The notes under the pieces were generated by a model, which was given only the letters and a program-made list of their open reading frames with translations, did no database searches and was not told the origin of the DNA. This document shows positions 1 through 22,448 of a stretch of 53,750 bases of DNA, piece after piece. Every line of letters begins with the position of its first letter. Within the stretch, counting starts at the first letter, position 1. Source of the DNA: Chitinophagales bacterium (GTDB lineage: Bacteria > Bacteroidota > Bacteroidia > Chitinophagales > CAIODY01); contig CANGEV010000017.1 in the NCBI GenBank assembly GCA_947452995.1, positions 1-53,750 of the forward strand. The letters are read 5' to 3'. Both the position numbers and the translations under genes were made by a program.

Positions 1-2638
1 AAATATAAGATCCATTACCTCCTGTGGCAGCTCCATTTAAGGTTGCTGAACTACCCGCACAAACTATTTGACTAGCACCTGCATTTGCAGTTGGTTTTGC
101 ATTAACAGTAATTAATGCTGCAGAAGTGTTTTGTGAAGTACAACCATTAGCATCTGTCACTGTTAAATTAAAATTATAGGAACCACTATTTGATGAGGTA
201 AAGGATGGTTGAGCAATATTTGGATTATTCAGCGACACGCCACTTGTTGTCGTCCATGTGTATGTGTATGTTCCATTTCCTCCTATTGCAGCTCCATTTA
301 AGGTCGCTAAACTACCCGCACAAACTATTTGACTAGCACCAGCAAGTGCTGTTGGTTTTGCTTTAACCGAAATTAATGCTAAGACAGATGTATCTGCAGT
401 ACAACCTACTCCACCACTTACTATCACACGGTACGGATAATTCCCTACATTTGATGTTCCTGTTATTCTCAACGTATCAGTGTTTGCACCTGTGTAGCTA
501 GTTCCTGCCGGAGTACTATTAGCAACCGCGGTCCAATTGCCTGCATTCAAATACTGCCATTGGTATGTCAATCCTGTACCGCCCGCAGTTGTAACATATA
601 ACTTAGAAGGCAAGGTATTTCCGGAACAAAGATTAGCTGACAATGGGCTAAGTGGAATGGAGATGTTATTATAAACACTAAAAGTCATAGTTGAAGGAGT
701 TGATTTACAACCATTTCCATCCGTTACTGTTAAAGTATAATTCGTTGTCGAAATAGGACTTGCATTCGGTGATGCAATAGAAGGATTGCTTAAACCAGAT
801 GTAGGTGTCCACGAATATGTATAGATACCATTACCAACTGTTGCAGACCCATTCAAACTAATATTCCCTCCTGAACACATTGATTGATTAGCACCTGCAC
901 TAGCAATTGGTAATTGGTTAACAGTTACTGTTGTGCTTGTACTACTATTACAACCATTAACATCCGTACCCGTTACAGTATATGTAGACGTAGTTGTAGG
1001 GTTGGCTGCTACAGAAGTACCAAAAGTTGCATTTAATCCAGTACTTGGTGACCAAACGTAGGTACTTGCTCCTACTGCAGTCAATGTCGCACTAGAATTT
1101 TTACAAATACTTGGTGAGTTCACAGTAATTGTTGGTAAAGACCATACGGTAACTGTAGCTGATGCAGTATTTGTACAACCATTGGCATCCGTACCCGTTA
1201 CAGTATATGTAGACGTAGTTGTAGGATTGGCTGATACAGAAGTTCCAGAAGTTGCATTTAATCCGGTACTTGGTGACCATGTATAAGTACCTGCACCTCC
1301 TGCAGTCAATGTCACACTAGAATTTTTACAAATACTTGGTGAGTTTACAGTAATTGTTGGTAAGGACCATACAGTAACTGTAGCTGATGCATTATTTGTA
1401 CAACCATTGGCATCCGTACCCGTTACAGTATATGTAGACGTAGTTGTAGGATTGGCTGTTACAGAAGTGCCAAAAGTTGCATTTAATCCAGTACTTGGTG
1501 ACCAAACGTAAGTACTTGCTCCTCCAGCAGTCAATGTCGCACTAGAATTTTTACAAATACTTGAGGAATTAGCTGTAATCGTTGGTAAAGACCAAATGGT
1601 AACAGTAGCTGATGCAGTATTTGTACAACCATTAGCATCCGTACCCGTTACAGTATATGTAGACGTAGTTGTAGGATTGGCTGATACAGAAGATCCAGAA
1701 GTTGCATTTAGCCCGGTACTTGGTGACCAAGTATAAGTACCCGCACCTCCTGCATTCAATGTCGCACTAGAATTTTTACAAATACTTGGTGAATTCACTG
1801 TAATCGTTGGTAAAGACATTACGATAACTGTGGACGAAACAATATTTGTACATCCATTAGCACCTGTCCCAGTTATTAAGTAGGTACTTGTAGTTGAAGG
1901 GTTCGCGGTAACCGTAACGCCAGTAGATGCACTTAATCCTATACTAGGTGACCATGTATAGGTATTTGCACCTGCTGCTGTTAAAGTAGTACTAGAATTT
2001 TTACATATGCTAGAATTAGCTAAAGTTGCTGTTACAGTAGGGGCTGTCAAGGCAGAATTATAGGTAATAATGGAGCTTGCTGTATTTACACAACCATTCG
2101 CATCAGTTCCTACCACTGTATATGTTGTTGTTGCAATAGGATTTGCAGTTACTGTGCTTCCTGTTGTACTACTAAGACCATTGCTTGGAGACCATGCATA
2201 ACTATTTGCACCAGAAGCTGTCAATACCACACTTGCACCAATACATATCGTTGCATTATTAACTGAAACATTTGGTAAAGCTAAAACACTTAATGATGCA
2301 GTTGCAACAGGGGAAGAAGTACAAGCAGCAGTATCAGAATAGGTGGTTCTAAATTTCACGATAGAACTTCCCGCAGTACTAGCCGTAATGATGGTACCAT
2401 TAGTATACGTGCTCCAAGTAGTACCCCCATTAAGTGAATATTCATTGGTATTTGTAGCACCTGATCCTCCACCAGAACCCGAAGAAATTGTAGCGCTTAA
2501 TGTTGCGCCGGCACATATTGATCCTCCTGATACAAGGCCATTACTAATTGATATGTTACCTGCGGAACACGTAACTTTTGCATATGATTGTATATTTGTA
2601 AAAACGAAAAGACTTAACAGGAAAAATATTTTTTTCAT
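1..2638 (-). CDS. Giant repeat-rich secreted surface protein, N-terminal part (continues beyond window start)
   Basis: Reading from the ATG at 2638 the frame stays open to position 1, giving about 879 residues with the C-terminus outside the window. It starts with a signal peptide (MKKIFFLLSLFVFTNIQSYA) and a Ser/Gly-rich domain. Then come tandem Ig/PKD-like modules: five 75-residue copies carrying the motif ICKNSSATL, then TYVWSPSTGL, then TYTVTGTDANGC. Further in, PKD-like modules of another type carry the motif GASQIVCAGS. Such proteins in Bacteroidota are usually exported by the type IX system and anchored through a C-terminal sorting domain, which cannot be seen here. It is the last visible gene of a five-gene operon and starts 9 nt after the beta-barrel gene. 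Role as adhesin or surface-layer fibre is inference. Confidence 0.88.
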   Translation of the reverse strand, partial: MKKIFFLLSLFVFTNIQSYAKVTCSAGNISISNGLVSGGSICAGATLSATISSGSGGGSGATNTNEYSLNGGTTWSTYTNGTIITASTAGSSIVKFRTTYSDTAACTSSPVATASLSVLALPNVSVNNATICIGASVVLTASGANSYAWSPSNGLSSTTGSTVTANPIATTTYTVVGTDANGCVNTASSIITYNSALTAPTVTATLANSSICKNSSTTLTAAGANTYTWSPSIGLSASTGVTVTANPSTTSTYLITGTGANGCTNIVSSTVIVMSLPTITVNSPSICKNSSATLNAGGAGTYTWSPSTGLNATSGSSVSANPTTTSTYTVTGTDANGCTNTASATVTIWSLPTITANSSSICKNSSATLTAGGASTYVWSPSTGLNATFGTSVTANPTTTSTYTVTGTDANGCTNNASATVTVWSLPTITVNSPSICKNSSVTLTAGGAGTYTWSPSTGLNATSGTSVSANPTTTSTYTVTGTDANGCTNTASATVTVWSLPTITVNSPSICKNSSATLTAVGASTYVWSPSTGLNATFGTSVAANPTTTSTYTVTGTDVNGCNSSTSTTVTVNQLPIASAGANQSMCSGGNISLNGSATVGNGIYTYSWTPTSGLSNPSIASPNASPISTTNYTLTVTDGNGCKSTPSTMTFSVYNNISIPLSPLSANLCSGNTLPSKLYVTTAGGTGLTYQWQYLNAGNWTAVANSTPAGTSYTGANTDTLRITGTSNVGNYPYRVIVSGGVGCTADTSVLALISVKAKPTALAGASQIVCAGSLATLNGAAIGGNGTYTYTWTTTSGVSLNNPNIAQPSFTSSNSGSYNFNLTVTDANGCTSQNTSAALITVNAKPTANAGASQIVCAGSSATLNGAATGGNGSYI
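28..392 (-). repeat. Second repeat family, two copies 261 nt apart
   Basis: The segment starting at ctccattt near 31 is repeated, with scattered substitutions, from 292. The period of 261 nt corresponds to 87 residues. It encodes the GASQIVCAGS-type PKD-like module and shows that the repeat domain changes type toward the C-terminus. Confidence 0.7.
957..2081 (-). repeat. Five tandem 225-nt coding repeats (75 aa each)
   Basis: The landmark string actagaattt recurs at 1091, 1316, 1541, 1766 and 1991, exactly 225 nt apart. Another string, gtatatgtagacgtagtt, recurs with the same period in the three middle copies and one flanking copy. The unit encodes one Ig/PKD-like module of the surface protein. 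Array ends are approximate, because degenerate copies continue on both sides. Confidence 0.85.
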
Positions 2639-2647
2639 AAATTGATG

Positions 2648-4078
2648 TTACAATTTTATGCTTAGCCCTAAATTGGGAATAAACTGACGAGAATTGAATG
2701 CTGGAATGGAGTATAAAATGGAACTATAGGAGCCATTATAATTGGCATATTGGGCATAATCCCGATTTAGATTTACAGAAGAAATTCGTAATACACTAAA
2801 ATCACAACCTAGATAAATACCAACAAATTTGTAGTAAACATTTGCCTTGATACCAAAAGGTATTATCATCTTACTTACAGCCATTTCAGGAGCTGTTGTA
2901 TTTTTTAATAAATAATTAGATACTAGACCACTTGATGGCACATTACTTATCACATGATTTATATTGCTATAATTTGCAGTAGTTGTTAATCTCATTGCAT
3001 AATTTTCATAAACAGAATTCGAAAAACAATAGGACGGTCGAACTGTAAAATCTAAACTACTTTTCCAATCGTCTGTTAAATTAAATTCCTTGGTAATGCC
3101 TAAATTGACACCAATAGCTATTGTGCTAAAGTGTATCTCATCATATAAATCATTTATGATTAGTTCTCTTTTTTGAACAATGTTTTGATAGGTATATTGA
3201 TTGGAAACAAAATGCAAGGAGTCAGCTTGAAAGGATGAAACCGTTTGAAAATATCCCCCACTTATACCTACGAAAGTTTGGAATCCTGATTTATCCGATT
3301 TAAGTGGTAAACACCTATTGTACTCCAAAGCAAAGCCACGTATTTGTCTTTTGAATTCACCATTACTTATCGAATTAGCATTTGCATAATTTTGAACTCC
3401 AAATCGTAAAAAACCATTAGTTTTCTCGTTGTCAGCAAAAGACTGAAAGATTCCGCGTAAAACCCTTGCTGAGTCTCTTAAGTCACGCTTTAGCGCTTTT
3501 GGAGAAAAGTCTTTAATTTCGCTTGAAGCAGTAAATGGGTAGTACCCTTTTGTGTTTTTTATAAGAATATCGGTATAAAATTTAATCTTATTATCTGGAC
3601 ATGCTTTAAACTTATTCAATTTATACAAAGTATAAACATCCCAATCACAAACGGGTGTAATTTCAAGGCCGTTTATTTCATTATCTTCTAGAGTTAACGC
3701 TGGTGCCCGATGTTCAAAATCATTGTAAAGAAAAAAATAAGACATTTGATTTAAATCATATGGCTCAGAACATCCTGTAAGCCTGACATAGGATCGCTCA
3801 GTACTTTGAATGTTGGTAATATGTATAATTAATAAATTAGGATCAATAGTAGTCTCTTTAAAGTCAATACCTAAATCATTTTTTGAAACATACTCTACTA
3901 TTCCAGAATAATTACCATCAGTTGTTATGATAATACCTAACAATTTTTGCTTATTATAATTTTTTGCGATCGATTCCAAACTGAAGTCAGCATGTACCTC
4001 GACAATTTTGTAGGTAGCCCCGAACGAGACAAAACTGGCAAAAAGAATGCATTGAATTATTATAAAGTTCTTAAGCAT
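2648..4078 (-). CDS. Predicted outer-membrane beta-barrel protein, unknown function
   Basis: 476 residues. A signal peptide (MLKNFIIIQCILFASFVSFG) is followed by a soluble N-terminal region and a C-terminal half of alternating hydrophobic/aromatic strands (for example FVGISGGYFQTV, IAIGVNLGITKEF, FGIKANVYYKFVGIYLGCDF) that ends in a typical barrel-like terminus, FIPNLGLSIKL. The fold is inferred from this pattern, and I do not recognise a family. It sits 6 nt after the upstream exported protein gene and 9 nt before the giant repeat protein gene. A role as outer-membrane partner or anchor of the repeat protein is therefore plausible but unproven. It could also be a PorP/SprF-like partner, but length and sequence do not clearly say so. 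Confidence 0.75.
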   Translation of the reverse strand: MLKNFIIIQCILFASFVSFGATYKIVEVHADFSLESIAKNYNKQKLLGIIITTDGNYSGIVEYVSKNDLGIDFKETTIDPNLLIIHITNIQSTERSYVRLTGCSEPYDLNQMSYFFLYNDFEHRAPALTLEDNEINGLEITPVCDWDVYTLYKLNKFKACPDNKIKFYTDILIKNTKGYYPFTASSEIKDFSPKALKRDLRDSARVLRGIFQSFADNEKTNGFLRFGVQNYANANSISNGEFKRQIRGFALEYNRCLPLKSDKSGFQTFVGISGGYFQTVSSFQADSLHFVSNQYTYQNIVQKRELIINDLYDEIHFSTIAIGVNLGITKEFNLTDDWKSSLDFTVRPSYCFSNSVYENYAMRLTTTANYSNINHVISNVPSSGLVSNYLLKNTTAPEMAVSKMIIPFGIKANVYYKFVGIYLGCDFSVLRISSVNLNRDYAQYANYNGSYSSILYSIPAFNSRQFIPNLGLSIKL

Positions 4079-4084
4079 AATTGA

Positions 4085-5119
4085 TTAATAAGAACAGAGT
4101 GAAAAATCAGCTTTAAATGACGGATAAGGGAAATCAAGCAATAAGTTAGTTTCTAGTGGAACTATTTTAATAAAATAATACTGGTGATCAATAATATCTC
4201 CCCAGGCAGCACGTTGACCAGGTTTACTAGGATTTTCGGCTGTTACGTCCAAATCAAATTTCAATATTTTATACTCATTAGTAACCCCAACCCATTCTGG
4301 TAATGGTAAAACTTCACCAAAACGAACTCCATTTTTATGAAGATGAGTAAACGCTTCATCATCGTATATTTCTATTTTAAATTTTGTTAAAAACTCACAA
4401 TTGGTTTTTATGGGAATTCCCCAAAAACCATCTTTTACCTGGGATTTACCATCCTCAAAACGACGATCAACGAATCCATATAAAGTAAAAGTCTTATCGT
4501 GTTTTTCAAAATATGCGAATGGCTCTAATGCCTTTACATTTCTGACAACTTCAATATTTACTTTAATAGCTTCTTTCTTCGGAGTATAAATTGATTGAAC
4601 CAAGACTATTAATTTCCGATTATTACCATTTTTTTTGTTTCGCTTGAAAAGGGTTAAAATAGTATTATGAAAATCCTGCTTATTAGAAACTCGAGTAACA
4701 GGTATGGTTGAACTAAACAATTTTGATTTATCATTATTAAAAATGATAAAATCGAAATTTGATTGCTTTTGCAAGTACGATTCTATCTCTTTTTGCTGAT
4801 CTACTAGTGAATATGTGCTAGCATTATAGGGAGCATTATTAAAGCGAAAAACATTTTGATCATTTAATTCAATACGCTCATTAATTATACCTGGAATTGG
4901 ATATGTAATAAAATTCAGTGAGTTACTTTTCAAGCCTTTAAAAATAGGATCACTTAGAACTGCAATAAGATTAGAATCAATAACAGGTAATTCAGCAATG
5001 ACAGTTACCTCCGGTGAAAACTTTCTTGTATACTTGAACTTTTCCGATTTTGCTAATAGTGAAAAACAGGAAAAATAAAAAATAATTGCAATCAAAAAAA
5101 AACGCAACATCCAATTCAT
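4085..5119 (-). CDS. Exported protein of unknown function
   Basis: 344 residues if translation starts at the ATG at 5119. This start gives a clean signal peptide (MNWMLRFFLIAIIFYFSCFSLLA) and lies 4 nt after the stop of the upstream gene at 5124. A longer frame reaching 5209 would run deep into that gene and add an unlikely leader. The mature part is beta-rich with many charged residues and no motif I recognise. Position between two other exported proteins in the same operon suggests a component of one envelope assembly. Confidence 0.72.
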   Translation of the reverse strand: MNWMLRFFLIAIIFYFSCFSLLAKSEKFKYTRKFSPEVTVIAELPVIDSNLIAVLSDPIFKGLKSNSLNFITYPIPGIINERIELNDQNVFRFNNAPYNASTYSLVDQQKEIESYLQKQSNFDFIIFNNDKSKLFSSTIPVTRVSNKQDFHNTILTLFKRNKKNGNNRKLIVLVQSIYTPKKEAIKVNIEVVRNVKALEPFAYFEKHDKTFTLYGFVDRRFEDGKSQVKDGFWGIPIKTNCEFLTKFKIEIYDDEAFTHLHKNGVRFGEVLPLPEWVGVTNEYKILKFDLDVTAENPSKPGQRAAWGDIIDHQYYFIKIVPLETNLLLDFPYPSFKADFSLCSY

Positions 5120-5123
5120 ATTT

Positions 5124-6428
5124 TTATTGTTTACCACCATGACTACATAAAATTTTAACTGATCTTTTAGTATCTGAAGCAAGAACATTACCTTTACTGT
5201 CCTTTGCATATACTGTCACATCCCATAAATATACCTTTTCACTTTCTCCAGGATGCAATGCATCTTGAATATTCGTTATACGGGCACTATTTTCCTGCGG
5301 ATTAGTTATATCCCATGTTATTCCTGTAACGCCGCATTCAGTGCAAGTTTGTTCACTATATCCTTGCGCATAATCAACACTGACCGTATATTTTGCAATT
5401 TTCTTTGCATCTCCTGTAACTGTCCATCTAAAAATTTGAGCACCATTAAAAGCTAAGGTTAATTTCAAAGGAGAAGGAGGAGGTGGTGGTGGTGCACAAT
5501 GTTTACTACATTCATCCTTACTAAGATACTGACCAGGCAATAATGCAGCAGATTTACATACTTGTTTGGCAATACATTTTCCACCAATACAAACATATAT
5601 AATTTTTATATTTGCTTTGATACATTCATCACATGTTAGGTATTCACCAGGACCCAGCTTCGCACACTTATAAATCAGTTTAGCTTCGCAAGTACAAGTT
5701 TTACAATTAAAAATATAAACTGTTTTTGTATTTTGCTTTCTACACTCCTGTAACGTATTAAATTCACCAGACTTTAATTTATACTCAATGGCCTCCAGCC
5801 TTACATTACATTCACATCCACTGTAAACAGTTTTTTTTACAGGTATTTGATCGAATATAATACAAATCCTTGCAATGCTTTGGCTATTCTTTTTTTGTCT
5901 TACAATATAATCTTGTATATCTTTTTCTAAATGTGAAGAATACTTAATAAAATAATAGTTTTTATCAGAGACATAACGCGGAATATTTTCCTTATTTACT
6001 GAGCTTTGATAAATTCTAGAGTCTTGACATTTAAAATTAGAAAGGAATTCTTTAATTCCTTTCTTCCAAATCGAAAATGGTGCACCCATTAAATAATTAT
6101 CAAAAATTTCAATTTGGAAAGTAGGATATTTATTAGGGGCATCCCAAAACGTATACCAGTTCGCAGAATTACTTGTATTTGAATACATATCATAACGCGC
6201 AAGCTGAAATGAACTCACTACATAGTTCAATTTAACTCCAGAGTAATTTACTGTCTGGGGGGTGCAAATTTTTTTAAAATTATCACCAAGGCTTTCATCA
6301 TGATTGGCAATTGGTCCGTTTGTTATTACAAGAATTTTAATTTTTTCAACTTCTGCATGAGCACTGAAATTTAAAATTCCTGCAATAAAAAAAAGTAGTA
6401 TAAATACTTTATCTATCAACTTATTCAT
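5124..6428 (-). CDS. Exported cysteine-rich protein with three short repeats and a C-terminal beta domain
   Basis: 434 residues from the ATG at 6428 (an upstream in-frame extension to 6485 overlaps the previous gene). Signal peptide at residues 1-25. Residues 28-200 form an unrecognised domain beginning KIKILVITNGPI. Residues about 200-311 hold clustered cysteines and three copies of a unit of the form G-(E/Q)-(F/Y)-x4-EC-x3-(N/C), at about 219, 259 and 297. A proline run (six Pro from about 313) separates this from a C-terminal fibronectin-like or similar beta domain. The cysteines suggest disulfide cross-linking outside the cytoplasm. Function unknown. Second gene of the operon, 11 nt after the membrane protein gene. 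Confidence 0.75.
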   Translation of the reverse strand: MNKLIDKVFILLFFIAGILNFSAHAEVEKIKILVITNGPIANHDESLGDNFKKICTPQTVNYSGVKLNYVVSSFQLARYDMYSNTSNSANWYTFWDAPNKYPTFQIEIFDNYLMGAPFSIWKKGIKEFLSNFKCQDSRIYQSSVNKENIPRYVSDKNYYFIKYSSHLEKDIQDYIVRQKKNSQSIARICIIFDQIPVKKTVYSGCECNVRLEAIEYKLKSGEFNTLQECRKQNTKTVYIFNCKTCTCEAKLIYKCAKLGPGEYLTCDECIKANIKIIYVCIGGKCIAKQVCKSAALLPGQYLSKDECSKHCAPPPPPPSPLKLTLAFNGAQIFRWTVTGDAKKIAKYTVSVDYAQGYSEQTCTECGVTGITWDITNPQENSARITNIQDALHPGESEKVYLWDVTVYAKDSKGNVLASDTKRSVKILCSHGGKQ

Positions 6429-6439
6429 TTTTTTTAAAT

Positions 6440-7381
6440 TTAGTCTAATTGAGCAACTAATGTAACGCCCTGGATTGCAGTACATTTATCAAGTACTGCA
6501 CCATTTCCATCAGAATTATTTGAATTGACAGGAATCACAAGACCGGTTATTTGTTGAATTTGTGCTGCTAAAACGTAGTCACGTACTACAGCAAAATTTC
6601 CTGAAAAACTTTGCTTACCTGCAAGAACCAAGCCATCAGAATCTTGCATAAAATTCGAATAACTTAAAGTATGATTCGCACCTTGGTGTCTAAAGTTAAA
6701 ATGAGACGTAACAGGTGCCCCAGCAATGCCCCCAGCTTTAACCCAAGCATCATAATCAGAAACTAAAGACTTTTTGAATCGATCGAATTGAATTTTATAC
6801 CCAGAATGTTTAATATGTATATAAGCGATAAAACAATACAAAAAACCAAAAGGAACCCAAAACAATGGCGTTGGAAAGAAAATATACATTACAAAAATTT
6901 TGAGTGCGGCAATCAGATAAATAGCAACATAAAGAACAATATCAATAATAGTATGATTAGCATTTGTAATCGTTGCCTTTAACTGACCTACTGCTGCAGG
7001 GCTTAATCCAAGTATACTTGCAATTTTCAACTGAGCTCTTATTAATCGATTTTCAATATCATTTCTACGCAATAAGATGCCAATTCTTACATCAAAAACA
7101 AATCCAATTACAGTTCCAGATAAAGCAAGTAAGGGATAAATCAATCCTTCGTCAAGTAAGAAAGCACCAATAATTAATGGTATTGCACTGCCCAATTCTA
7201 GTGCAAATGCTGTCCAAAACATTTTTCTATCTCGGTCTACGTCAAAAGTGTTCAACAGACCTGGAAACATCATTTGAGGATCTTTTCTAGTGCCTATCCA
7301 ATAATTCAATGTTGCAGCTGAAGGAGCAAACTGCCTATTCAAAAATGAAGTCCAAACGTTTCTAAAGGAATAAGGAGGCAT
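6440..7381 (-). CDS. Four-helix membrane protein of unknown function, first gene of the surface operon
   Basis: 313 residues with no signal peptide. There are four likely membrane segments at about residues 57-77, 80-104, 143-168 and 170-190, followed by a soluble C-terminal domain of about 120 residues that ends ...KCTAIQGVTLVAQLD. I do not recognise the family. The gene opens the five-gene minus-strand operon and is divergent from the XRE regulator gene at 7506. It might be an inner-membrane platform for the exported proteins downstream, but that rests on position alone. Confidence 0.72.
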   Translation of the reverse strand: MPPYSFRNVWTSFLNRQFAPSAATLNYWIGTRKDPQMMFPGLLNTFDVDRDRKMFWTAFALELGSAIPLIIGAFLLDEGLIYPLLALSGTVIGFVFDVRIGILLRRNDIENRLIRAQLKIASILGLSPAAVGQLKATITNANHTIIDIVLYVAIYLIAALKIFVMYIFFPTPLFWVPFGFLYCFIAYIHIKHSGYKIQFDRFKKSLVSDYDAWVKAGGIAGAPVTSHFNFRHQGANHTLSYSNFMQDSDGLVLAGKQSFSGNFAVVRDYVLAAQIQQITGLVIPVNSNNSDGNGAVLDKCTAIQGVTLVAQLD

Positions 7382-7505: not shown

Positions 7506-7901
7506 ATGAAAACAAGTAAACAGTACAAAGCCCCATCTAATCGCATTAAAATAATGCGTGAGGCACAAGGTTTTAGCCAAGAATATGTTGCTAGTAAGCT
7601 TAATTTAAGTCAGCAAGCGTATTCAAATCTGGAGAAAAACCCTGATAATGTTAGTGTTAAACGTATAAAAGAATTGTCTGAAATACTCAGCGTACCAATT
7701 ACCAGTATTATTGGTGAAGAGGATACATACATACAACAAAATTTTCAACAACAAGGTGGTCAAGCTAGTACAGTTATGAATGTACAAAGCAATGATAATA
7801 TAAAAGAAGTTTATGAACGTTACATAAAAGATCTAAAAGATGATATTCAAAACCTTCGTTCTCAGATAGAATTCATGCAAGGATTAATAAAAAGAAAATA
7901 A
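7506..7901 (+). CDS. XRE-family helix-turn-helix regulator with C-terminal coiled coil
   Basis: 131 residues from the ATG at 7506. The frame is open further upstream to 7437, but that would place the start before the likely promoter. The N-terminal helix-turn-helix (IKIMREAQGFSQEYVASKLN through SQQAYSNLE) is a classic Cro/C1 type. Residues from about 95 onward (DNIKEVYERYIKDLKDDIQN) form a likely coiled coil for dimerisation. It stands between the divergent surface operon and the helicase gene and could control either one. Small XRE proteins with this layout are common in Bacteroidota and often have no known target. Confidence 0.85.
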   Translation: MKTSKQYKAPSNRIKIMREAQGFSQEYVASKLNLSQQAYSNLEKNPDNVSVKRIKELSEILSVPITSIIGEEDTYIQQNFQQQGGQASTVMNVQSNDNIKEVYERYIKDLKDDIQNLRSQIEFMQGLIKRK

Positions 7902-8036: not shown

Positions 8037-11000
8037 ATGAAAGCCATTTATTTTGAATCGATTATAAGCAAAGCCTTAGAGGCGAAGATTATTGGTGATC
8101 AGGAATACAACTACGTTAGAGAAAATATTGGGAAAGAAAACGCAGGGATCTATATTCAAAAACTACTCAACCGTCTACTCCATCAGGTGATGCGCGCCAT
8201 CAATAGCAGCGCCAACGATGAAAACGCATTACCACAACTCAGCGAACTTTGTAACCAACTCATCCAATCCATTGCAAGCATCCAAAAGGATGATGAGCTC
8301 CTATCAGAAAGCATCATTTCTCCTCCGCAAGTGCTAAAGGCCAAGTACGCTAAAATCGACTCCGGCATACATAAGGTCGAAGAAAATATACGCTCGCAAT
8401 TCCCAATAACAGGCTTCAATCAATCTGTCCTCTTCTCCGGAGGAAAAGATAATGTATCCCTAGAAAGCGAACTCCGTAAGGAAATGCTCTCCTCCGACGA
8501 GATCTACTGGCTTGTATCGTTTATCAAGTTTGAAGGTATCCGTCTCTTTGAATCTACCTTCCGCGAACTAGAACGCTTGAATGTACCTATCAAAATTATC
8601 TGTACCGTCTATATGGGTGCCACAGATCCGAAGGCCATTCAATTTCTGTCGCAGTTTCAAAATATAGAAATTAAGATATCATACAATACTAACTTAGAAC
8701 GTCTGCATGCGAAGTCGTATATCTTCAAAAGACAAAGCGACTTCAACACAGCCTATATAGGCTCTTCCAACCTTTCACGCAGCGCCATGACCAATGGCCT
8801 AGAATGGAATCTGAAGATTACCTCACAAGAGGTACCGCATGTCATTCAAAAATGCTTAGAGACGTTTAACACCTATTGGAATGATAAAGAATTTCACAGC
8901 TTCAAAATTGAAGATGATTGGGATAAACTAGTCGGTGCAATTAATCGCATTCGCCATACGGAAGCAAACGATACTTTCACGTTCGTAGAACTGACGCCCT
9001 TCGAATATCAAAAGGAAATACTAGAACAACTTGCGCATAAACGCGCAGAAGGACAACATAGCAATCTCGTTGTAGCTGCCACTGGAACGGGCAAAACAGT
9101 CATTGCTGCGTTCGACTTTAAAAATATCCTTTCAAAGAATCCACAGACAAAATTTTTATTTGTCGCACATCGTGAAGAGATTCTTAAACAAGCACAGTTC
9201 ACCTTCAGACAAGTTTTACGCGATGCAGATTTTGGAGAGCTGTTCTATGGTGGACGTCAGGCAAATAGCTATCATCATCTCTTTGCGACCATTCAGACGA
9301 TGAACAGTCGCTTACATGAACTAGCCTTGATCAAAGAATTTTACGACTACATCATCATTGATGAAGTACATCACTCGGCAGCTAAAAGTTATGAAAAGCT
9401 ACTGAACTATTTTCAGCCAAAACAATTACTTGGATTAACAGCCACTCCCGAACGAACTGACGGCGATGATATTACACGCTTTTTCGCTAATAATATTTCA
9501 GCAGAAATACGTTTGCCGGAAGCACTTAATAGAAGGCTTCTCTGTCCTTTTCAATATTTTGGAATCAGCGACACGATCGATCTTTCGCGGGTTTCATGGC
9601 GTAAAGGGAAATATGATATCAACGAATTAGAAAATGTATATACAGAGGATAAAAGAAGAGTTTTAGATATCATTCGCAACTGCGAAAAATATCTGCGTTC
9701 GATGACGGATGTGCGCGCAATAGGATTCTGTGTTTCTATTAAGCATGCGCAATTCATGCAAAAGCAGTTTGAAGAAAAAGGTATTAAAGCAGGTATACTA
9801 ACTTCCTTGCAAGCAGAAAACAGAAATGCAATTATTCAACAACTGAGAAGAAGAGAAATCAATTTTCTATTTGTAGTTGACATTCTCAATGAAGGCGTAG
9901 ATATCCCTGAAGTAGATACTTTATTGTTCTTACGTCCAACAGAAAGTATGACCATTTTCTTACAGCAACTCGGTCGTGGCTTGCGTACTACGGAAGGAAA
10001 AGAATATTTAACGGTTTTGGATTTTATTGGTCAATCCCATGTTGAATATAGTTTTGAGCACAAGTTTAGAGGTATGCTTGGAAAGACGCATACAAGGGTC
10101 GTTGACGAGTTAGAGAATGATTTTCCGCACCTTCCATTGGGCTGTTCAATTATTTTGGAAAAGCAAGCGAAGGAGATCATTCTACAGAATATCACTCGCG
10201 CCTTACGAGGTAATCGACAAAATTTACTTCGCCGAATAACGCAATTTAAACAGGACTTTTCACAAGATCTGAGCCTGACTAATTTTACTAACTTAAGTCA
10301 GATTGCTCTTCAGGATATTTATAAGTACGGCTTACTATTCACTGAACTTGTGGCGGAGTCGAACCAAGCTACAAAACCTTCATTCAAAGATGAGATTGCA
10401 ATTAAAAAATTAGCGGAGTGCATGGGTAGCACCTGGTTGAGTTGCGATTCACCCAATTATTGGAGAGCTATATTATCCTTCATTACAAATGATTTTTCAA
10501 ATTGTAATGAGGCGCTTAGCGAACAATATCTTTTGATGATCTATGCAGATCTGTTTACCAAAGCGCCGCAATGTAGCAAGGAGGAGTTAGCTCAAACACT
10601 TAAAGATATTTGTTGTCAGGAGGGTGTAAAGCAAGAACTCATCGAGTATCTGAATATCCGTATCAAAGAAAGCGAAGTGCGTGAAAGCAGCTATGAATGG
10701 AGTTTTTCGAATGCATTACAATTGCATGGCAGATATAACCGTAATCAAATTTTGATTGCAATGGGTATAAGTAATCTAAACAAGTTATACCCTAGTCGAG
10801 AAGGTGTTTTGGATATCAAGGATAAGGGGATGGAATGTTTCTTTGTCACTTTAGATAAAACAGATTGGCGGATGAATGCGAGTACGAAGTATCACGACTA
10901 CTTCATTAACGAAGAGTTATTTCACTGGCAGAGTCAGAATGCCACTTCGGAGACGAGTACGAAGGGGCTCTCGTATATACACCATATGCGCCAAAATAAA

Positions 11001-21021: not shown

Positions 21022-22111
21022 TCACAACCTCAACTTCGGCAAAGAACTCGCGGCTTCTATCTTTTTGCGGTCGACGATCTTCGCATAAATCTGCGTTGTC
21101 TTGATCTCGCGGTGACCAAGCATCTTACTCACCGTATATAAATCGATATTGTTCTCGAGCAACAAAACAGCATGTGTATGACGCGCACAGTGGAATGTGA
21201 TCTTCTTGCGTATATCCGCGCGCAGCACCCAGCGCTATGGCTGCATTGACATAATCACTATAGAGCAAACCTTCAAAGATAAATTCACTGTCGCCTTTGC
21301 GCTCGCCCAACATTTCAACCGCCTGCTCACTCAATGGCAAATACTCTTTCCCGCGCGTCTTTTGTTGCCGGAACGATAACTCGTACCCACGACTCGTAGA
21401 ATGACGCAAGCACGACCAAGTAAGACGTTTGATATCGCCGAAACGAATGCCCGTCAGACAAGAAAACAAAAACGCACGCTTCGTCACTGGATAGTCGCAA
21501 GGCGTATCTACTAAGGCCTGCACCTCCTCAAACGTAAGATACTCCCGATGCGTCTCACCTTGCGATAAGCCCGGTATAAAGTCGGCGAGGTTTTCGCGAA
21601 TGATACGCTCTTTATAAGCGACCCGCAAACTAGCCTTAAACTTGTTAAGATAGGAGTAACGACTGTTCTGCGATAAGGGGCGACGTGAAACAGTGCTCGC
21701 ATCGCGCTCGATGAAATGTCTTAACTGCAAACACCTTTCAATCCTAAGATCGTGGATATCGAGTTTTGTTCCGAAGAACTTCTTGATATACTTCAAGGCA
21801 GAAGCCCAGTTACCATAGTTACCTAAGGAATCCTTGCGCGAGCGCATCAGGCGCGCATAGAAATCATAATAGCTAAGGCTAGTCTTCTCGGTACGATGGA
21901 GTCCGTAGCGATTGTCTTGCAATTCGATTACTTTAATGGCTTGCAAGTTCTGGATGAGCTCTAGATCTTGCTTGTTTTTAAAACGTTCGGCGGCAGTTGT
22001 AGGATTAGGAATAAACTTTGCTTCTGTGCTTTCTTTTACTCTTCGGCCATTCACATGACGTCGAGAAAATAGGTATAAATACCATTGGCGCACTTGCGTT
22101 TTCCTATACAT
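21022..22111 (-). pseudogene. Tyrosine recombinase/integrase split by a frameshift
   Basis: Two overlapping frames make up one phage-type integrase. The N-terminal part, from the ATG at 22111, has a core-binding domain and the first catalytic Arg in CLTGIRFGDIKRL. The C-terminal part, in the +1 frame, reads RADIRKKITFHCARHTHAVL and contains HxxR, LGH (in MLGHREIKT) and the Tyr of TTQIYAKI. The switch falls at a CGCGCG run near 21225-21235, where a one-base change would restore a single protein of about 360 residues. It may be inactive, or the base call may be wrong. The integrase points to the surrounding AT-rich DNA being a mobile island. Confidence 0.85.
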
Positions 22112-22448
22112 GAAACGATAAGAAACAAAAAACGCTGAAACCCTAGTAAACAGTGACTTTCGAGAAGTAATTCGAGCAACAAATGAGCAACTATTGACAA
22201 CTACATCAAGGCAAAGAGACTCAATCCGGTGAGAACTAATAAAAGGCATCACTTTGCTGTATCCGAAGTTAAAGGCTTGTTGTACGTAACAGAATCACCC
22301 AAAATTAGAAGCTACCAGGAAGACATTCGTTCTATGTTGCAACAGGTAGCAAAAATGGATGAGCTGGGCGAGGATTGGTAGTTATTGCATGAATTTTTCC
22401 ATTTTTTGCATGCAATTAAAAAAATATCTGTACTTTTGTATCGAAGAA
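22112..22448. other. Integrase-AbiE intergenic region with a coding-like remnant
   Basis: On the plus strand a stop-free stretch (22187-22381, ending in TAG) reads RHHFAVSEVKGLLYVTESPK, then IRSYQEDIRSMLQQ, ending MDELGEDW. It lacks a start codon in its first two thirds. It resembles the C-terminal end of a lost gene, but I do not recognise it. The AbiE promoter occupies the last 50 nt. Confidence 0.4.
22402..22438 (+). promoter_or_regulatory. AbiE operon promoter with overlapping palindrome
   Basis: TTTTTTG (ends 22408) and TACTTTTG (22431-22438) are spaced 22 nt, close to the Bacteroidota TTTG/TAnnTTTG arrangement. The palindrome TTGCATGCAA (22406-22415) overlaps the upstream element, and a half-copy, TTGCATG, lies at 22385. 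This fits autorepression by AbiEi, which in studied systems binds repeats at its own promoter. Confidence 0.55.

Follow-up and report, generated by a model that had tools for sequence, protein, structure and literature searches.

A candidate surface-adhesin cassette at a contig edge in a Chitinophagales bacterium

Introduction

Do the five tightly packed genes at the beginning of this stretch form a dedicated envelope system and, if so, what might it do? The window, that is, the whole 53,750-nucleotide stretch of Chitinophagales DNA that was analysed, corresponds to contig C17 in an assembly of 36 contigs, and its position 1 is a contig end. The preliminary description read these genes as an operon of unknown function that ends in a giant repeat protein, and proposed that they could provide a dedicated export, anchoring, or fibre-assembly system for this protein. 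The reading developed here, to which we give an even chance, is that the operon encodes an envelope-spanning surface-adhesin apparatus linked to an inner-membrane protein.

Layout of the gene cluster

The five consecutive genes lie on the minus strand, at positions 6440-7381, 5124-6428, 4085-5119, 2648-4078, and 2-2638, and encode, from 5' to 3', a 313-aa four-helix membrane protein, a 434-aa cysteine-rich exported protein, a 344-aa exported protein, a 476-aa putative outer-membrane barrel, and an Ig/PKD repeat protein, of which the N-terminal 879 aa fall within the window. These coordinates, and the intergenic gaps of 11, 4, 6, and 9 nt (taking the signal-peptide starts), reproduce the tight packing originally described. 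Four of the five products had been placed outside the known families, and this also held, with genes 1-4 receiving no meaningful score in Pfam or NCBIfam, and no family in PADLOC or PHROGs. The product types first assigned were borne out for gene 1 (four predicted transmembrane helices), gene 2 (cysteines and a hydrophobic N-terminus), gene 3 (a signal-peptide-like segment), and gene 5 (Ig_7/PKD repeats in Pfam), whereas gene 4 can be called a barrel through weak homology.

The contig edge altered the remainder of the picture. Positions 1-99 of the window exactly match the final 99 nt of contig C33 (C33:7788-7886), where both contigs end, and the whole overlap has no further copy in the genome. 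The joining of C33 to C17, which is drawn from this overlap and independently supported by synteny, would produce a reading frame for an Ig/PKD protein of approximately 1,417 aa with a T9SS type A CTD at its end. The description of the repeat protein as very long or giant is not supported, and was rejected on account of the contig edge; with the join, the protein is not giant in this genome. Within gene 5, at positions 949-2005 of the minus strand, a 225-nt Ig repeat is present in 4.7 tandem copies, with 85% matches.

Nor does the operon end at the repeat protein, given that a sixth gene, encoding a 394-aa trypsin-like lipoprotein, follows 8 nt after gene 5, outside the window (C33:4979-6163, minus strand). 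Just past this gene, C33 (locus L020) carries an IS30-like transposase gene (HTH_38 plus rve; 3074-4078), and the same contig contains a bacteriorhodopsin-like gene (22-738) and a gene of the DNA photolyase/cryptochrome family (1100-2563). At the opposite end of the cluster, upstream of gene 1, lies a divergent XRE/HTH_3 gene (7506-7901, plus strand), a possible regulator of the operon, with a similar divergent gene being found at the equivalent place in locus L045. The scans for terminators and promoters returned chance levels.

Conservation of the gene order

The preliminary description had held that a conserved order in distant genomes would support a system. This order recurs in L041, L042, and L045 (records named Chitinophaga or Flavobacteriales), where, as in the window joined to C33, a gene 1 relative is followed by genes for a TSP3/Cys-rich protein, an exported protein, a barrel, an Ig T9SS protein, and a trypsin-like lipoprotein. 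The proteins of these four complete loci share approximately 20-45% identity, and the gaps between the genes range mostly from an overlap to a few nucleotides. Locus L054 has the first five genes, followed by a second T9SS protein, with no protease being seen. A second T9SS protein gene, LamG-like by inspection, lies after the cassette both there (L054:13521-14897) and in L041 (8818-10704).

A reduced form of the cassette is present in eight further loci. L043, which retains the protease, and L044, which stops at a contig edge, are partial, while L038, L039, L040, L046, L047, and L055 have gene 1 first, and then other exported genes, the third gene of L055 encoding an Ig protein that is 2,331 aa long or longer. 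In all 13 four-helix loci, the gene 1 relative heads a run of exported-protein genes.

The counterparts were matched by sequence for gene 1, the C-terminal module of the adhesin, the protease and, more weakly, the gene 4 barrel, while genes 2 and 3, with no significant match to their counterparts, were assigned by position alone. Profiles built without the window matched gene 1 at E 1e-25, the C-terminus of the adhesin, including the CTD, at 4.5e-45, and the protease at 6e-10. The alignment that includes the most distant four-helix members was too loose for a scan of the collection.

Relatives of gene 1 were found in about 1-2% of the sampled genomes, with seven of the loci being in GTDB genomes. 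The distribution of the cassette is patchy, since the five relatives that were sampled within the genus and family of this genome gave no match to gene 1 or gene 2; four-helix relatives were also absent from the viral contigs and plasmids. A literature search, with small coverage of the subscription journals, found nothing on such a cluster.

The adhesin module and gene 1 are also found apart. Genome G011 has a full adhesin module accompanied by a TssR homologue and a pair of related barrel genes, and no gene 1 on that contig, and the full module is present in only one (G896) of the eight other genomes with gene 1. On this comparison, there are therefore two sub-modules, one formed by the barrel and the adhesin, the other by gene 1 and a periplasmic partner, and the window cassette unites both. 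The genes might then be neighbours with no joint function, that is, a generic T9SS adhesin and its barrel lying beside an unrelated membrane-protein operon, as the G011 pair would suggest, together with the many genomes in which gene 1 and its downstream partner occur without the conserved adhesin module. However, four loci share the complete order at the levels of identity and spacing given above, and in L055 gene 1 is found, independently, with a different Ig protein that is also very long, which leaves this explanation with little probability.

The adhesin and its putative carrier

The gene 5 C-terminus scores 31.6 bits with TIGR04183 (cut-off 23), and matches PF18962 (Por_Secre_tail) at E 2.3e-10. 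The genome of the window encodes the T9SS translocon SprA (PF14349, E 2.8e-162), and SprA_N was found in 10 of the 11 genomes tested, this one included. The CTD and SprA point to the gene 5 product being a T9SS type A substrate, which would be exported by this general route. The dedicated system first proposed for the repeat protein is thus unlikely as an exporter, because the CTD is a standard type A domain and SprA is present in the genome; nothing points to fibre assembly by the operon. As an anchor or carrier, the proposal gains support from the pairing of the barrel with the adhesin module at six loci.

This module comprises approximately 170 aa ahead of the CTD, and is conserved across the loci (BLASTP 1e-28 to 1e-13 against the window), while the repeats vary. 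Its profile had no PDB match at E<=10. Among 120 relatives, the full-length C-terminal module was recovered in three, the genome of the window (G000), G049, and G011, with barrel genes adjoining each, and the remaining matches cover mainly its Ig-like first half. In all six loci with the conserved module, including G011, where no four-helix gene was found, the gene immediately upstream codes for a related barrel.

Gene 4 begins with a signal-peptide-like segment. A profile built on six barrels, drawn from five other loci, matches it at E 9.7e-5, the next non-member being at 0.48, so that its product is a putative outer-membrane barrel by weak homology to other putative barrels. One of its relatives has a sub-threshold match to OMP_b-brl_2 (E 0.0027), and the AF2 model of gene 4, with a pLDDT of 29, is too low in confidence to show a fold. 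The strict pairing suggests that the product is a probable private carrier or anchor of the gene 5 adhesin. Type A CTD proteins have been published as using the common carrier PorV, and not a private barrel (PMC12618676), and such a role for gene 4 would therefore break that rule.

The four-helix protein, its partners, and the protease

Gene 1 encodes an inner-membrane protein whose N- and C-terminal parts are predicted to be cytoplasmic, and its AF2 model consists of four long helices of moderate confidence (pLDDT 63, pTM 0.60). The residues E62 and K161 are invariant in all 13 four-helix proteins, and D97 and H189 in 12 of them, so that, with E62, D97, K161, and Y182/H189, each helix has at least one conserved charged or polar residue; D247 and Q274 are conserved in the predicted cytoplasmic tail. 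The family has no counterpart in Pfam, NCBIfam, PADLOC, or PHROGs, and a Foldseek search of the model against the PDB recovered nothing at E<0.001. The best VIA-align hits (Z 9.5 and 8.2), mostly the transmembrane halves of ABC exporters, were rejected as fold relatives, since these scores are in the range common to helical bundles. Eight of the 13 loci, some of which end at contig edges, are without the conserved adhesin module, and gene 1 may therefore have another primary role.

The gene 2 product has an N-terminal hydrophobic segment and 20 cysteines in its 434 aa; no known domain was found in Pfam, and its counterparts elsewhere carry TSP3 repeats. The gene 3 product has a C-terminal cysteine (FSLCSY), and a cysteine is present in the last eight residues of the gene 3 products in six of six loci, compared with 12% of 227 background ORFs for the last 11 residues. 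This is suggestive of kinship, although not proof, because such proteins contain several cysteines anyway.

The sixth gene matches Trypsin_2 (PF13365) at E 3e-20, with a catalytic triad, by motif, of H111, D228, and S355. The His and Ser motifs are intact, and a lipobox is present, in all five of the proteases, and the Asp, judged by eye, in four. The Trypsin_2 domain and its His-Asp-Ser motifs are shared with the HtrA/Deg proteases, but the product is a lipoprotein, has no PDZ match in Pfam, and falls below all of the NCBIfam Deg cut-offs.

The protease, whose motifs are intact in L043 and in each of the four complete loci, and the conserved D247 and Q274, which suggest a cytoplasmic partner, also fit an envelope-spanning sensor, in which surface contact or load would pass through the barrel and periplasmic proteins to gene 1, with the trypsin-like lipoprotein triggering a response, as in site-1 protease cascades. 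Effector-type genes do lie near some four-helix loci, that is, a TIR gene in L054 (2133-3245) and a caspase-EAD11 gene in L038 (287-1423), but they are not directly within the runs, and may be chance neighbours. Furthermore, no sigma factor, anti-sigma, or kinase was seen in the operons, and the protease was not seen in L054 or the distant loci, and a sensor seems unlikely on balance.

Genomic setting

The surroundings of the cassette look like a mobile island. The GC content of genes 1-4 and the protease is 0.30-0.35, compared with 0.42 in the window beyond a tyrosine integrase gene (21125-22252). Between positions 8037 and 15222, the window encodes a type IV restriction enzyme (PADLOC, E 8.7e-207), a PT-DNA HNH nuclease-like protein, a Schlafen-type helicase, and a MazG-like protein. 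Upstream of the cassette in L042, a reverse-transcriptase-like gene (6032-7246) is retron-like by inspection. Given the patchiness, the GC content, and the integrase, the cassette would appear to move between Bacteroidota on islands.

A defence function does not follow from this setting. An anti-phage or conflict system, with the surface parts serving as decoy, receptor, or alarm, would be in keeping with the restriction, nuclease, helicase, and integrase neighbours, the low GC, the XRE regulator, the patchy distribution, and the restriction-type genes that adjoin L054 by inspection. Many surface genes ride on mobile islands, however, and genes 1-4 have no match in PADLOC, at E<=0.01, to known anti-phage systems, or in PHROGs, and no run contains an effector acting on nucleic acids or NTPs, except for an SNase-like gene in L043. 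Defence is thus quite an improbable explanation.

Comparison with known systems

The closest analogy is with the chain of SprB, SprF, and GldK in Flavobacterium johnsoniae, in which a mechanical chain is built from a T9SS adhesin, its barrel carrier, and a disulfide partner in the periplasm (PMC12635249, PMC12618676), the chain being disulfide-linked (PMC12635249); T9SS adhesins with cognate carriers have been published (PMC12618676). The cassette likewise appears to combine a T9SS repeat adhesin, an adjacent putative outer-membrane barrel, periplasmic cysteine proteins, and an inner-membrane protein behind them. In contrast with that chain, its CTD is of type A, and not type B (TIGR04131), its barrel gene lies upstream, and not downstream, of the adhesin, its inner-membrane protein is outside the Gld families, and it has an extra trypsin-like lipoprotein. 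The cassette may be likened to this chain, and is not filed under it because PorP_SprF (PF11751) found no match in gene 4 at E<=1, or in five related barrels at E<=0.1.

The grappling hook GhpA of Aureispira (PDB 9flp) shares Ig_7-type repeats with gene 5 (phmmer E 2e-111), and is secreted by the T9SS (PMC11205867), as the gene 5 product would be, but has 5,898 aa, as opposed to approximately 1,417, and the conserved C-terminal module is unmatched in GhpA or any PDB chain. Orthology was rejected, given that the match is driven by the repeats, with values of 1e-32 and 5e-27 for related adhesins, and no match for a PKD_4 protein that the same genome encodes.

The T6SSiii complex TssNQOPR (PMC10781749) is also a Bacteroidota envelope complex with a multi-transmembrane protein, single-anchor periplasmic proteins, and a lipoprotein, although TssN has five transmembrane helices, and gene 1 a predicted four. 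TssN gave nothing over the cut-off in the 11 genomes tested, with a single weak match in an unrelated membrane ORF, and TssR_VWA was not found outside G011, and a T6SSiii membrane complex was rejected for the genome of the window on this ground. The TssR homologue of G011, on contig C125 (L076, 10349-12751), adjoins the barrel and T9SS adhesin genes, and TssN was not found in that genome.

Proposed mechanism and significance

In the adhesin apparatus proposed here, the gene 5 product, which has a signal peptide as well as the CTD, would be carried across the inner membrane by Sec and across the outer one by the general T9SS, and its module of approximately 170 aa would dock on the gene 4 barrel as a dedicated carrier or anchor, as suggested by their strict pairing. 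The products of genes 2 and 3 may form a link across the periplasm, perhaps through disulfide bonds, with the gene 1 product, whose helices contain ionisable residues and which could supply the adhesin with energy or sense the load on it, while the trypsin-like lipoprotein, in the periplasm or on the surface, may mature, release, or signal through a component. Variation of the repeats between loci, as seen here, would be in line with expectation for a surface protein in contact with partners, prey, hosts, or phages.

A more specific version, which we hold tentatively and consider less probable than the general reading, is that of an undescribed envelope machine of the Bacteroidota, in which gene 1 would drive a T9SS adhesin, or sense its state, by way of periplasmic proteins linked through cysteines and of a private type A carrier. 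Such a machine would depend neither on the gliding motor nor on PorP/SprF, and would have a dedicated maturing or releasing protease.

The four-helix family is new to the protein-family libraries searched, and its conserved charged residues offer targets for mutation. The cassette bears on two questions, whether a private outer-membrane carrier is possible for adhesins with a type A CTD, and whether the periplasmic disulfide links to adhesins that were recently reported in gliding (PMC12635249) represent a general design. If the proposal is true, a conserved multi-gene apparatus would underlie part of the large set of uncharacterised Ig/PKD T9SS proteins in the Bacteroidota.
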